A stretch of 64,000 nt of DNA from NCBI GenBank assembly GCA_028284955.1, contig JANQQS010000130.1, positions 1 to 64,000 on the forward strand, in the 5' to 3' direction. Both the position numbers and the translations under genes were made by a program. Below are positions 31,216 through 36,151 of this stretch, piece after piece; the stretch's first letter is position 1; each line of letters opens with the position of its first letter. The notes beneath the pieces are model-generated. The model was not told the origin of the DNA, did no database searches, and saw only the letters and a list, made by a program, of their open reading frames with translations. The stretch comes from Myxococcota bacterium. GTDB taxonomy: Bacteria > Myxococcota_A > Polyangia > Polyangiales > Houyiibacteriaceae.

Positions 31216-33828
31216 ATGAACCCTCGGAGCGAATCGCGTCAAACGCCGAGCAGAGCCAGAAGTTTCTTCGCTCGCCTCACGGCCCTGCAGACGCGCGCTC
31301 CCGGTCGATTCGCTGGCGTCGCGTTGGCCCTCGGGGCGCTCAGCATTCCGTTGATTTTGCAGCTTGGACTCGACAGCCGCTGGACCGCGCTGCTGCCCAG
31401 CGACAAACCAAGCATTCGCGACCTCGAGCAAATCAAAGATCGAGTGGGCGGGCTGTCCACGCTCATCGTCGCGGTTGAGTCTCCCTCGAAGGATGTCGCC
31501 GCGCTCAAGCGGTTCGGAAAAGACCTCGCGCAACGGGTCGAGCAGCTTCCCGATCGGTACGTACGCACCGTCGATTGGAACGTTCGCGACTACAAAGACT
31601 TTCTGTGGACGCATCGCCACCTCTACGCGCCCACCGACGAGCTCGAGGAAATCAGAGACGCGATCGAAGAACGCGCCGACTACGAGCGACTGAAAGCCAA
31701 CCCTTTTTTCATCGACCTAGAAAACGAAGAGCCGGCCGACCCCAAAGAACTCATCGCGGACATGGAGTCTTGGGCAGACGCCGGGGAAAAGAAGTTTGAG
31801 CGTTACCCCGGCGGGTTCTACCTCCATCCCGACCGGAATCTGCTCGCGATCTTTGTGCGCTCTGACTTGAGCGGAGGCGAGGCGGTCGGAGGACGAGAGC
31901 TCGTCGCCAAAGTGCAAAGCATTGCCGACGAGCTCGACCCATCTTCGTATGGCCGAGACCTGCGTGTGCAGTTCGGGGGAGACGTGGTGGTCGGCGGCGA
32001 AGAACACAAAGCCATCGCCAAAGAACTCACCATTGCCACGAGCCTTACGCTCGCCCTCGTTCTGCTCGCGATTTATCTCTTTTTCGGTCGCGTGCGAGCC
32101 ATTGTGTTGCTCGGCGCGGCCGTCACTGTCCCCGTGCTGGTCACCTTCGCGGTCAGCGAATTGTTGGTCGACTATTTGAACACGTCCACCGCGTTCCTAG
32201 GAAGCATTGTGCTCGGAAACGGCGTGAACCCCAACATCATCTGGCTCGCGCGATACTTCGAGGAACGACGCAAGGGGCATGGCGCACGCCGCGCGATTCT
32301 GGAAACCCACTGCAGCACATGGATCGCGACGTTGACGGCCAGCACCGCAGCCGGCCTCGCATACGCTTCGCTCATCCTCACCGACTTCCGAGGATTTAGA
32401 GATTTCGGCATCATCGGTGGAATCGGGATGGCGCTGTGTTGGCTCGGCGCGCTCCTTCTCCTCCCGGCTCTCGCTGCACTGATGGAGCGTTTCGCGCCCA
32501 TGCGATGGTCGACCAAGACGACATCCGGCGATACGAAACGCTTTCGTTGGTCGCCGGCCGCGTTCTTCGGTCAGATCGCTTCTCGTGCCCCGCGCACCAC
32601 CGTGCTCGTATCGGGCACGATCGGATTACTGAGCCTCGCGGCAGTCGGCTATGCCGTCGCGCACGATCCGCTCGAATACGACTTTCGCAATCTGAAATCC
32701 GTGCGCGATGATCGAAGCCCAGGCCAGGAGGTGAACTCCAAGGTCAACGCGATCGTAGGAAGCGTCGCGCGAGGAAACGGCATCGTGGTGTTCGTGCCCA
32801 ACGCGGACGAAGCGGAATCGATCGAACGACAGCTCGAAGCCCGATCCGGGGCGCTTTGGAAAACGGTGCACAGCGTGCACGATTTGCTACCCGCAGAGCA
32901 GACTCGAAAGATCGAACTGCTCGATGAAATTCGAGATCTGCTGACCGATTTAAGACCGCGCGTAGACGTCGAGCTCCAAGCCAAAATCGATACGCACATA
33001 CCTCCCCAGCGCATGACCCCGCTCACCGCGGAGGATTTGCCGGCTCAGGTCGCACGCACGTTCTCCGAACGCGACGGCACACGAGGACGCATCTTGCTGG
33101 TTGAAGAAAGCGAAGACTTTTCGATTTGGGACGGCGCGTATCTCGTGCGATGGTCGCGCGCGCTGCGAGAATCTGAGCTCACCTCGGGAAGCCCTCCTCC
33201 GCTCGCCGGCCGTGGCCCAGTGTTCGCGGACATGCTGGAAGCCGTGTGGACTGACGGCCCGCGCGCCATTTTGGCTTCTTTCCTGGCCACCCTATTTCTC
33301 TGCATCGTCGCGTTTCGTTCCCTTCGAGAACGACTGCTCACCGTCGGCGCGCTCCTGCTCGGCATCGCGTGGATGGGCGCGACGATGGCGCTCATGGGCC
33401 TAAGGCTCAACTTCCTCAACTTTGTCGCGTTTCCCATCACCTTCGGAAACGGCGTGGACTACAGCGTCAACGTGATGAAGCGCTACAGCATCGAACGCGC
33501 CCGAACACCGCTCGACGCCGCGCGAATCGCGGTCACAGGAACCGGCGGAGCCGTCGTGCTTTGCTCCCTCACCACAATCATTGGCTATACATCGCTCTAC
33601 GCCAGCGCAAACCTAGCGATTCGTTCGTTTGGCACCGCGATGGCGATCAGCGAGGTCACTTGTCTCATCGCCGCGGTCGTGACCATGCCCGCCATGCTGC
33701 TATGGCTCGACCGACGCGGAGCCCCGGAGGTTCCTGCCGCGGTAGCTCCGCCCCCAAACGTGCCGAGCCGACCAGCCACCGACCCGCCTTCGGGGGCTTC
33801 TCCTGTACACCCCAAGTCCGCCGCCTAA
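31216..33828 (+). CDS. MMPL/RND-family exporter
   Basis: This 870-residue inner-membrane transporter has the RND plan of two halves, each with one helix, a large periplasmic loop and a block of helices. The first block includes LALVLLAIYLFFGRVRAIVLL and VLGNGVNPNIIWLARYFEERR. The second includes ILASFLATLFLCIVAFRSL and FPITFGNGVDYSVNVMKRYS. MMPL proteins export lipids, hopanoids or other hydrophobic molecules and use proton motive force. The periplasmic loops lack obvious known domains. No periplasmic adaptor or outer-membrane channel is adjacent, so cargo is unknown; HpnN-type hopanoid transport is one option. Confidence 0.88.
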   Translation: MNPRSESRQTPSRARSFFARLTALQTRAPGRFAGVALALGALSIPLILQLGLDSRWTALLPSDKPSIRDLEQIKDRVGGLSTLIVAVESPSKDVAALKRFGKDLAQRVEQLPDRYVRTVDWNVRDYKDFLWTHRHLYAPTDELEEIRDAIEERADYERLKANPFFIDLENEEPADPKELIADMESWADAGEKKFERYPGGFYLHPDRNLLAIFVRSDLSGGEAVGGRELVAKVQSIADELDPSSYGRDLRVQFGGDVVVGGEEHKAIAKELTIATSLTLALVLLAIYLFFGRVRAIVLLGAAVTVPVLVTFAVSELLVDYLNTSTAFLGSIVLGNGVNPNIIWLARYFEERRKGHGARRAILETHCSTWIATLTASTAAGLAYASLILTDFRGFRDFGIIGGIGMALCWLGALLLLPALAALMERFAPMRWSTKTTSGDTKRFRWSPAAFFGQIASRAPRTTVLVSGTIGLLSLAAVGYAVAHDPLEYDFRNLKSVRDDRSPGQEVNSKVNAIVGSVARGNGIVVFVPNADEAESIERQLEARSGALWKTVHSVHDLLPAEQTRKIELLDEIRDLLTDLRPRVDVELQAKIDTHIPPQRMTPLTAEDLPAQVARTFSERDGTRGRILLVEESEDFSIWDGAYLVRWSRALRESELTSGSPPPLAGRGPVFADMLEAVWTDGPRAILASFLATLFLCIVAFRSLRERLLTVGALLLGIAWMGATMALMGLRLNFLNFVAFPITFGNGVDYSVNVMKRYSIERARTPLDAARIAVTGTGGAVVLCSLTTIIGYTSLYASANLAIRSFGTAMAISEVTCLIAAVVTMPAMLLWLDRRGAPEVPAAVAPPPNVPSRPATDPPSGASPVHPKSAA

Positions 33829-33830
33829 CG

Positions 33831-34067
33831 CTGTAGAGCAGCGGCCTTTTGGTCTGAGCCCGGCTGCCCCTGCCTATCTACACTGGGGGTCCTTCGGACC
33901 CGTACTGCGTCTAGACCTGTGCAGCTCCACGGACTACGTCCGCTCCGCCTTGCACAGCTCCAGCCGCAACAACCTCCTCGCTCCCTCCCTGCGAAAGGCT
34001 CGAAGCCTTCCTCAGTCGCTCGCTGTGGGGGCGCTCGCGCTCAGACCAAAATTCCACTGCTCTCCAC
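33831..34067. repeat. Structured element bounded by a 29-bp imperfect inverted repeat
   Basis: This gene-free 394-bp gap holds an element of about 237 bp. Its ends (33831-33859 and 34039-34067) are inverted repeats matching at 24 of 29 positions, including a perfect 13-bp core TTTTGGTCTGAGC. Small perfect hairpins lie inside: GGGTCC/GGACCC at 33887-33901, GGAC/GTCC near 33931-33941, and AAGGCT/AGCCTT at 33995-34009. A third copy of the arm sequence sits at 36127-36151. The remaining part of the gap (34068-34222) shows nothing else. It may be a MITE-like or palindromic repeat unit. Confidence 0.7.
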
Positions 34068-34222
34068 CGCTCTATGGGATGCGACGTGCGCTCCAATCAA
34101 CCATTTGATCACTGCTCACTGCTCTAGATCCATAGATAGGCAGAGGCTCGGCAATGGCGCTGCGGCTTCAAGTCGAATTTGGGCTGCTCGCAGTTCGATG
34201 ATATCCTGATGAGTTCGAGGTA

Positions 34223-34612
34223 ATGCCTAGAACATTGTATGATCGAGTACCGGTGCGGGATGGGCTTGCGGGGGAACGCACGGTGCTCTCCGCCGAGCGC
34301 ACGTTTTTGGCCTACGTGCGAACCTCGTTTGCGATGTTCATTGCCGGGCTCACCGGGGCCCATCTGCTCCAATCGACACTGATCCGGGTGAGCGCGTACG
34401 CCATCACGGTCATGAGCGTGGTGGTGTTCGCGGTGGGCATCTGGCGTTTCAAAAAGAGCCGTGAGGAAACGCTTTGCCTCCTCTCGCGGCTCGACAACTC
34501 TGCCCCCGACAACTCTGCCCCCGACAACTCAACCAAACCCGATTCAGAACTCGTAGCTCGCCGCGAATTTGTACGCCGGGGCCGACGGCACGTTGGCGCC
34601 TCGGAACGCTGA
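34223..34612 (+). CDS. DUF202 family small membrane protein
   Basis: This 129-residue protein carries the DUF202 signature LAGERTVLSAERTFLAYVRT (residues 15-34). Two membrane helices follow, SFAMFIAGLTGAHLL and ISAYA-like VSAYAITVMSVVVFAVGIW. The function of the family is not known in detail; related domains occur in vacuolar polyphosphate VTC complexes. After the second helix comes a Cys-containing basic stretch and a DNSAP repeat of 15-bp units. The reading frame then runs 69 bases into the convergent beta-barrel gene on the other strand, so the C-terminal tail is unlikely to be conserved. Confidence 0.82.
   Translation: MPRTLYDRVPVRDGLAGERTVLSAERTFLAYVRTSFAMFIAGLTGAHLLQSTLIRVSAYAITVMSVVVFAVGIWRFKKSREETLCLLSRLDNSAPDNSAPDNSTKPDSELVARREFVRRGRRHVGASER
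34493..34537. repeat. 15-bp in-frame tandem repeat, three units
   Basis: Units begin at 34493, 34508 and 34523. The first two are identical (GACAACTCTGCCCCC) and the third is partial. They encode DNSAP-type repeats at the end of the DUF202 protein. Confidence 0.9.
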
Positions 34613-35398
34613 TTCTACTCCCGCGGAAAGATGGAACGTGCTCCACACGCGGGCCGCGAGCTCGACTCCGTACGACGTGAAACTGACCCCGTCGCCGAGG
34701 CCGGCAAAACCTGAAATGGCCGCGCCAGTATCCAAAGACTCGGTTCCCACCAAGCGGAGAATCAGTAGAAAACGATCGATGACTGGTTTGGTGATCCGGG
34801 TTCCAAACTCCGCGCCATAAACAATCTGATCGGTAAACCCTTTGGTGCGCAGCGCGTACCCTAGGTTTCCTTGAACATAGAAGCCGAACAGCGACCCAGC
34901 CGTGAATGAATGGCCGATCGCGCTCCGAAACGTCACATCGTATTCGCCATCGCCGGTGGGCAAGGATGCCGCAATCAGGTTCGCCGCGGGGTCATCCACC
35001 GAAGGCGAATCGTCGCCCGTCGGCAACCCCAGCTGCACGCCAAGCGCCAACCGAAACGGCGCCGTCAATACCCCCGTCCATGCGCCCACGCGAAGATCGC
35101 CAAGCCCTTGGGTAGCCCCCATATCTTCGAGGACGTTGCGTCGATAGAGCTCCCCATCAAACGTCAGCGTAAGGTATCGGTCGATCACGCCGACCTCTCC
35201 GTAGATACCAATGGCGTGTTGTTTGTAGTCCGGGATGCTGCGTTCGTTGCCGTCCGGGTCGTAGATTTCGTCGGCCGCAATGAGACGGTAGTTGAGGTTG
35301 ACGTAGCCGCTTCCTTGGTCGCGCGTCCAGGCTTGAGCGGAAGCGGACGAGGCAAGCAGCAGGATAGAAAGAAAAGACCAAGCCCACACGTACTTCAT
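34544..35398 (-). CDS. Putative outer-membrane beta-barrel protein
   Basis: This 284-residue protein has a clear signal peptide (MKYVWAWSFLSILLLASSASAQA). Alternating hydrophobic/polar strands run to a C-terminal phenylalanine (ASYEF), the hallmark of outer-membrane barrels. Blocks such as GLGDLRVGAWTGVL, LALGVQLGLPTGDDS and FGFYVQGNLGYAL resemble transporter-type or phenol-degradation-type barrel families, but no specific family is certain. The ATG at 35398 overlaps the stop of the DM13 lipoprotein gene as ATGA, so the two are translated together. Its 3' end overlaps the convergent DUF202 gene. Confidence 0.78.
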   Translation of the reverse strand: MKYVWAWSFLSILLLASSASAQAWTRDQGSGYVNLNYRLIAADEIYDPDGNERSIPDYKQHAIGIYGEVGVIDRYLTLTFDGELYRRNVLEDMGATQGLGDLRVGAWTGVLTAPFRLALGVQLGLPTGDDSPSVDDPAANLIAASLPTGDGEYDVTFRSAIGHSFTAGSLFGFYVQGNLGYALRTKGFTDQIVYGAEFGTRITKPVIDRFLLILRLVGTESLDTGAAISGFAGLGDGVSFTSYGVELAARVWSTFHLSAGVESAFRGANVPSAPAYKFAASYEF

Positions 35399-35985
35399 GG
35401 GCCGTTCCCCGCTGCGCTCGCGGCCGGGGTGAGCTCCGCGCGAGCCACTTCGACCTGGAAAGGATTGCAATACACCCAGGCAAAGCCTGCACCTTCCGCT
35501 TCATCGCCCACGACATATGCGACTGGCCCTCTGATCGGTGTTTCGAAGATACCTGCCAGCACGTCTCCTTCACCGGGCGTTATCCCGTCCTCGAGTACGT
35601 CGCGAGTCGAAAGCGCTGCCACCGGGCCCGGCACGTTGCTGGACATAAACGCATCGTCAAACTGAAGCTCGAGCGTTCCTCCTTCGGTCCGAACCAGTGA
35701 AGCGGTTCCGGAAGCGGTGTAGGACCCTACGCCAACCACCTGTCCGCTGCTGACCACGGTGCCGGGACTCAACGTTCGAGACCCCGTTTGAGTCGTCGGG
35801 TCCGGTACCGAAGACCCAGAGTCGTCGTCGGTGGTTTCCATGGGAACCCCCGAGTCGTCCACCATCGGTGAGTTCGTGCTCCCTCCGGCTCGGACGTTCT
35901 CAGGGCGCAAATCAACAAAGTCTGCGTCGCACCCGACCGTCACGGCCGTGAACGCGAATAGGATAAAAGGTAAAGTCTGCCTCAT
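35395..35985 (-). CDS. DM13-domain lipoprotein
   Basis: This 196-residue lipoprotein has the signal MRQTLPFILFAFTAVTVGC with lipobox TVGC. A Asp/Ser/Thr-rich linker (about 30-70) leads to a DM13-like domain. Its blocks are YTASGTASLVRTEGGTLELQ, a FDDAFMSSNVPGPVAAL stretch and the final VYCNPFQVEVARAEL with the single conserved cysteine. DM13 domains have been proposed to act in redox or electron transfer at cell surfaces, and that role is not proven. Coupling to the downstream beta-barrel suggests a shared outer-membrane job, perhaps a lipoprotein-barrel complex. Confidence 0.72.
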   Translation of the reverse strand: MRQTLPFILFAFTAVTVGCDADFVDLRPENVRAGGSTNSPMVDDSGVPMETTDDDSGSSVPDPTTQTGSRTLSPGTVVSSGQVVGVGSYTASGTASLVRTEGGTLELQFDDAFMSSNVPGPVAALSTRDVLEDGITPGEGDVLAGIFETPIRGPVAYVVGDEAEGAGFAWVYCNPFQVEVARAELTPAASAAGNGP

Positions 35986-36126
35986 GCGGATCTCCGTCGG
36001 CGATGTGTTGCTGCGCCGCTTCTATGCCTTAGCCCGATGAGCGCCGTCTGGTTACAAAAAAGAATCGCAAGCAAGCGCGCACAGTCCATGCGAGAAATGC
36101 CATCATTTCATGTCAAAAACCACAAC

Positions 36127-36151
36127 AGAGCAATGGCCTTTTGGTCGGAGC
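36127..36151. repeat. Third copy of the dispersed 25-bp repeat arm
   Basis: This copy agrees at 22 of 25 positions with 33835-33859, including the uninterrupted 12-mer GGCCTTTTGGTC. It lies alone in the gap between two lipoprotein genes, without a visible inverted partner. The presence of the same sequence 2.3 kb apart defines a dispersed repeat family. Confidence 0.7.

Follow-up and report, generated by a model that had tools for sequence, protein, structure and literature searches.

A paired repeat in the window, by which we mean the whole 64,000-nucleotide stretch of Myxococcota DNA analysed here, belongs to a family of non-coding hairpins that is probably mobile, non-autonomous and similar in its working to an oversized REP or MITE. 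The family makes a sharp case for REP-like spread together with crowding at gene ends, combining a measurable fold, filled and empty orthologous sites, placement at TAG stop codons and a consistent orientation. The copy in the window belongs to the long type; including its terminal TA dinucleotides it extends from 33834 to about 34126, and it measures 227 bp from outer arm end to outer arm end. Its parts and neighbours are as follows.

31216..33828, + strand: upstream gene, MMPL-family transporter (ORF, Pfam MMPL)
33834..33836, + strand: TAG head, TA plus the first base of the CC arm (sequence; 45 of 49 paired elements have (C/G/T)TA before the CC arm)
33836..33859, + strand: CC arm GAGCAGCGGCCTTTTGGTCTGAGC (arm-pattern search)
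33860..33971, + strand: inner module found in long-type copies only, with hairpin GGGTCCTTCGGACCC at 33887-33901 (alignment with short copies)
33972..34038, + strand: inner module common to short copies and the sister genus, with hairpin AAGGCTCGAAGCCTT at 33995-34009 (alignment, hairpin)
34039..34062, - strand: inverted AA arm GAGCAGTGGAATTTTGGTCTGAGC (arm-pattern search)
34063..34074, + strand: extra degenerate copy of the right foot (TCCACCGCTC) plus right TA, only in the window copy (sequence)
34075..34127, + strand: tail TGGGATGCGACGTG...CACTGCTCTAG (similar tail after most listed AA arms)
34223..34612, + strand: next gene, DUF202 (ORF, Pfam DUF202)
36128..36151, + strand: lone CC arm GAGCAATGGCCTTTTGGTCGGAGC (arm-pattern search)

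The MMPL gene ends in TAA at 33826-33828, 10 nt before the CC arm, and is among the four TAA cases in the set of 65 stops described below. No sense ORF of at least 90 codons ends beside the lone CC arm at 36128..36151, and Rfam covariance models had no match in 33700-34300 at E-values up to 1. The DUF202 gene carries in its 3′ part two perfect tandem copies of CGACAACTCTGCCCC (34492-34521).

An earlier note on this DNA had pointed to two inverted arms and a third copy, and both likenesses hold: 33831-33859 and the reverse complement of 34039-34067 are identical at 24 of 29 positions, and 36127-36151 matches 33835-33859 in direct orientation at 22 of 25. The small perfect hairpins reported between the arms are indeed there, two of 6 bp each (33887-33901 and 33995-34009). 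The title of that note had the inverted pair occurring twice; the window contains one inverted pair and one lone arm. The element is moreover longer than described there: its arms are of two kinds (CC and AA), TA(G) bounds it, its left end lies at gene stops and a tail of ~50 nt follows the right arm. The proposal of a dispersed family is borne out by 135 arm sites genome-wide at up to three mismatches, against 0 for the reversed control, and its assignment to REP/BIME- or MITE-type elements is supported by this copy number together with homologues in a sister genus. The outcome that would have counted against it, no further copies and no conservation in relatives, is thus contradicted by the 135 sites and the structural homologues.

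The arm sites are spread over a 6.07-Mb draft genome in 223 contigs (73 forward and 62 reverse with at most three mismatches; the pattern read backwards gave 0). The AA-arm variant alone accounts for 49 + 44 sites, again with 0 in the control. Searching with a 317-bp query, for which 40 of 194 first-look candidates were scored, placed the family at 66 or more positions in this genome, some of them being one arm matching the other. A complete element consists of a CC arm, exchangeable hairpin modules and an inverted AA arm. Among the fetched loci we found 49 paired elements; a further 33 CC and 27 AA arms were loose, many of them lying close to the end of a contig. To count as paired, a CC arm had to have an inverted AA arm within the next 400 nt, which fixes the CC/AA make-up of this set in advance; where arms were listed without such selection, close opposite arms were also one CC and one AA, and one locus (L120) held an AA/AA pair. 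The length between outer arm ends is 122 or 123 bp in 37 of the 49 and 187-279 bp in the others. One of the four elements lacking (C/G/T)TA at the left has no upstream base at all; the base before the TAG head is C in 30, G in 13 and T in 2 of the 49, and the right flank starts with TA in 46. Most listed copies continue after the right arm with a tail of ~45-50 nt (TATGGGATGC...), others with a different hairpin-rich module. Several contigs begin or end inside the element, which indicates that the assembly was broken at some copies; the draft assembly probably breaks inside the element itself. In contigs C6, C49, C50, C102 and C197 the CC arm lies ~72-97 bases from the first base.

Each element folds as one long imperfect hairpin with the foot TAG...CTA and an exchangeable top. 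Elements of this genome and of the sister genus (g2) give the same dot-bracket structure, in which a foot of 11 bp is followed by a 2x2 internal loop and an upper stem led by TTTT/AAAA; the 2x2 mismatch is constant 11 bp above the foot and the TTTT/AAAA block beside it is invariant. Covariation was assessed in an alignment (A2) of 42 elements, comprising 34 of the 37 short own elements (all except L039, L118 and L122) and eight sister-genus elements out of the 21 that have a right end. Both sides had changed in 23 of 50 pairs. Cells changed on both sides numbered 184, as against 58.5 (sd 5.1) in shuffles, a test inflated by related sequences, and at most 46 with slid partners, a control that also leans towards the structure because the latter was taken from one sequence. 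The number of further pair types (38) was not above that in shuffles (39.1). In all three elements folded both ways the antisense strand folded better (−90.7 vs −78.9 and −72.4 vs −63.0 kcal/mol); for the window copy the values are −130.5 antisense and −109.8 sense. In the outer arms of own elements, read on the sense strand, 44 A-C cells stand against three G-U cells, though 22 of the 44 come from one column; counted by columns the ratio is 11 to 3 (p 0.06). In the outer arms of the sister genus the cells number 12 to 9. These counts give no more than a hint that the relevant folded form is the bottom strand.

The left end of the element coincides with stop codons to an unusual degree. We considered ORFs of at least 90 codons in sense direction and searched for their stops up to 150 nt upstream. 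The own genome has 74 distinct left ends, of which 65 follow a stop within 16 nt and nine lack such an ORF; in 36 the stop is the TAG of the element itself, and 29 are not exact. The element is thus oriented in sense with the gene whose stop adjoins it. The 65 stops are TAG in 59 cases, TAA in four and TGA in two. An exact case is necessarily TAG, its G coming from the element; the non-exact ones are a fair test of the preference, and 23 of these 29 have TAG, compared with 12 of 32 window genes (p 5e-6). TAG is a common stop in these genomes, being found in 12 of 32 window genes (13 of 32 with other gene calls) and in 98 of 298 genes in a sample of the related genome G001.

In the sister genus, 23 of 27 elements lie exactly on a stop. 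Of the other four, two start 4 nt after a TAG, one overlaps a TGA and one lacks an ORF of this kind. The search pattern began with TAG and allowed three mismatches, which may slightly favour exact cases; one of 28 rows, the element of L071 read backwards, was dropped, and since L069/L154 and L079/L086 are orthologous the count corresponds to 25 independent loci. By the same criterion, CTAG sites in general are exact in 16 of 75 cases in the window (22 of 75 within 16 nt of a stop) and in 169 of 757 in 400 kb of G001, control sites some of which are coding, so that an insertion there would be purged. With crude gene calls for the same 400 kb, CTAG falls at stops 41 times, in intergenic DNA 111 times and in coding DNA 227 times. 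The 23:4 split of the g2 elements into those exactly at stops and the others differs from the 41:111 of CTAG (stop to intergenic) with a Fisher p of 1e-8, but the true contrast is weaker than this value because crude gene calls miss genes. The upstream ORFs are real genes: 25 of 30 sampled match Pfam, one of them below the curated cut-off, several have Pfam domains complete to near the C-terminus, and they include DnaK, EF-G, GyrB, 2-oxoacid dehydrogenase E2 and type III pantothenate kinase. On the far side, four of 21 g2 right ends lie exactly on a convergent TAG stop, all four being exact on the left too. In the own genome 38 of 41 elements have a convergent ORF end within 400 nt, a count to which we give no weight, since in GC-rich DNA ORFs of 90 codons often arise by chance.

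The family extends to relatives. Among 57 genomes searched, the own included, 23 had matches, which outside the own genome covered parts of the query only. The sister genus has the common inner module in an element whose outer stem differs, TAGTGTGCGGATCTTTTCG...CGAAAATCTCTCGCACACTA, and internally deleted copies of ~30 bp are also found there. In G001 there are 10 left-arm sites. Of the 21 g2 elements with a recognisable right end, 13 have C before the TAG; TA is present at the right end in 17 and absent in four, and the next base is G in only nine of the 17. TAG at both ends is therefore clean in about half of the g2 elements, the rest being perhaps due to a short tail or to decay. The sister-genus element had no match in plasmid records. 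Related hairpins occur in other settings as well. At what is by eye apparently one locus in two genomes (L072 in G023, L073 in G026) such a hairpin has a quite different outer stem including a TGA stop, and L077 (G030) and L084 (G031) hold hairpins that, again by eye, seem to lie between tRNA genes and have other outer stems and no TAG head.

To compare orthologous sites, two loci, gyrB and a second one, were sought in 20 related genomes. gyrB was found in 19, with the stop TAG in 18 and TGA in one. Two of the 19 carry a full element, five have deleted forms or remnants and 12 have none that is recognisable, counting as empty one ambiguous case (G024). The remnants in G026 and G022 consist of a reversed piece whose start coincides exactly with the TAG of the convergent neighbour, whose frames are open for 491 and 485 codons, respectively. 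The second locus was found in 15 genomes: four full elements, three internally deleted, one remnant and seven sites without an element, whose stops are TAG in five and TAA in two. In G022 the scanned frame stops early at this locus and the element was read by eye. The element as a whole is thus either there or missing at a TAG stop that exists without it. The empty site of G017 reads TAG-TGCAGGGGTCAATCGG and the filled site of G030 reads TAG-(TGTGCG...CGCACACTAG)-TGCGGGGGTCAGTCGG, indicating an insert at a pre-existing TAG that leaves TAG on both sides. Examined as a possible target-site duplication, the filled G030 has TAG at both ends where the empty G017 has one TAG; judged from sequence, a duplicated TA and an end owned by the element would look the same. 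We infer the insertion event from these two loci, as the difference between filled and empty orthologues rather than as an event observed itself.

Taken as a mobile hairpin, the element would insert at (C>G,T)TAG, moved by a nuclease of the HUH/Y1 kind acting on a folded single strand, as for REP, or by a TA-duplicating transposase. Copies on stop codons would survive because the insert leaves the TAG, and hence the protein, intact. From sequence targeting combined with loss of copies in coding regions, such a scarcity of intergenic copies would not obviously follow. The enzyme may see the context of a stop codon, copies elsewhere may have been purged, or those at stops may be kept for a role at the mRNA end. 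That the insertion machinery itself, and not later selection, recognises sense-direction TAG stops at gene ends is rather doubtful; it might do so, for example, via single-stranded DNA exposed where translation ends and transcription continues. If true, this would be a hairpin dedicated to a genome-wide safe harbour that leaves host proteins intact, in other words a natural insertion rule set by an enzyme; were the placement set by selection instead, a function at the ends of mRNAs would be suggested. In both cases the repeat shapes the 3′ ends of genes and causes breaks in the draft assemblies of these genomes.

The search for a mobilising enzyme brought up no clear partner. Y1_Tnp was not found in G001, G011 and G024, and it does not track the elements, since G001 is among the carriers. 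The own Y1 gene, the single match above the Pfam cut-off, was rejected as a partner, having no arm in its locus and a match of 14 nt only; 35 loci from the Y1 search, many of them below the cut-off, likewise had no element match beyond 14 nt. A second Y1 family, present in 11 of 12 genomes, does not discriminate; its 20 loci yielded one 30-nt element match at 83%. A RAYT-type gene between two inverted element copies was not found at the Y1 loci examined. Genes of the second family have flanking repeats of their own, detected with a repeat finder in own contig C159 and by eye and flank comparison in the sister genus; these do not match the element arms, and a short GGATCTTTT-like likeness between them and the sister-genus arm was taken as chance. 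Contig C159 contains two Y1/HUH transposase units (L316:1347-2815 and L316:4946-6286) with inverted repeats of 21-29 nt (CAATCGAACCCGGGGCATTTT), the gene in one copy being shortened to 120 codons.

Two other explanations deserve weight. It is possible, if less probable than REP-like spread, that the family is an ordinary MITE which depends on an IS630- or IS5-like DDE insertion sequence with TA duplication at CTAG, its autonomous copy having been lost and its place and orientation being due to selection after random insertion. IS630 prefers CTAG; most copies have TA at both ends and C is the commonest base before TAG (30 of 49 own and 13 of 21 sister-genus elements). However, no autonomous copy or related transposase was detected in the own draft assembly with the DDE_3 and DDE_Tnp_1 profiles: DDE_3 (IS630-type) was found in one of seven genomes and DDE_Tnp_1 (IS4/IS5-type) in five of 11, the own draft genome being without either and G001 without the latter. 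Furthermore, CTAG is palindromic, and a palindromic target alone would lead to random orientation and does not explain the one-sided one, yet none of the 21 g2 elements is exact on a stop by its right end only.

Alternatively, though this seems unlikely, the element could be a structured 3′-UTR element (a terminator, mRNA stabiliser or insulator) kept by selection, with mobility secondary or past. The covarying fold, the sense orientation and position at gene ends, the ORFs that often end on its far side in the sister genus and a terminator scan with two hits against 0.3 expected would all fit. On the other hand, no T-run follows the large hairpin and both terminator hits are small and lie at the left end of the element; in the three elements compared it is the antisense strand that gives the better fold; presence is patchy and internal deletions between orthologues are common; and a spacing of 20-50 nt would be tolerated by such an element, yet none of the 65 left ends lies beyond 16 nt from its stop. 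An assembly artefact or chance similarity, suggested by the contigs that begin or end inside the element, has a negligible probability, being refuted by the absence of control matches, the variety of flanking genes and the recurrence of the pattern in other genomes.

The preferred reading, a mobile hairpin with REP-like biology, is based on the TAG head, the conserved stem mismatch and the placement at gene ends. We do not claim strict membership of REPs or MITEs because no transposase or autonomous copy was found; the element is longer and more precisely placed than known repeats of both kinds. With GTAG REPs, REPINs and BIMEs it shares, as far as the cited parts of these papers describe them, a high copy number, a TAG head and a hairpin with a conserved mismatch (E. 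coli REP, PMC8266576), inverted pairs that fold as one hairpin (PMC3116915), and a location at gene 3′ ends with a TAG stop supplied by the repeat end (PMC3733652). The mismatch left unpaired in the stem, as in bulged GTAG REPs, is at the same place in own and g2 folds, and the REPIN-like inverted repeats form one hairpin with compensatory changes. In the part of PMC8266576 on which we draw, E. coli TnpA-REP requires GTAG and the unpaired state of the stem bulge, and the mechanisms of REP dissemination are called poorly understood. The mobile unit is given as inverted REP pairs in the relevant section of PMC3116915, and flanking REPs as a constant feature of RAYT genes in that of PMC2817692. 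According to the pertinent pages of PMC3733652, flanking ORFs often take their TAG stop from the end of a GTAG REP, so that the coincidence with stop codons is already in print for these repeats, and REPs between convergent genes mostly lie at most 20 bp from both 3′ ends in the two species shown.

There are also differences. The element spans 122-279 bp between outer arm ends whereas REP units have 20-40 bp, and this short palindrome is absent, the shortest complete class being 122-123 bp. CTAG is more frequent in it than the GTAG of GTAG REPs, its TAG is paired in the foot, and the AA arm is not a palindrome alone and has no stem of its own. Unlike in RAYT/TnpA-REP systems, no Y1 gene was found beside it. 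Resemblance to MITEs such as Correia, RUP and ERIC, as portrayed in sections of PMC3733652, lies in inverted ends, TA at both ends, a non-coding and hairpin-forming sequence and adjacency to genes; of MITE features the element has terminal inverted repeats, no coding capacity and a length within 50-600 bp. It differs from these MITEs in its stop-codon placement, its sense orientation and the fact that no related insertion sequence was found in the own genome. Correia and RUP elements duplicate TA. As with the TIRtrons and TIR repeats of Y1 genes outlined in the same source, repeat families and TIR-bearing Y1 genes occur in one genome (contig C159), but the repeats around these Y1 genes are unlike the arms of the element. 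Integron attC sites were considered and provisionally dropped on their consensus only. Among the titles and abstract openings of the papers searched, we recognised no description of the family.

A further hairpin-rich repeat (GGGTTTGGCACCCAAACCCTCTCGTCGGGGTACGACCCCG...) lies in the window at 167-234 on the minus strand, behind the TAG of gene 256-1017. It has 16 distinct similar copies in the fetched own-genome loci, some of them directly after the right arm of the element.
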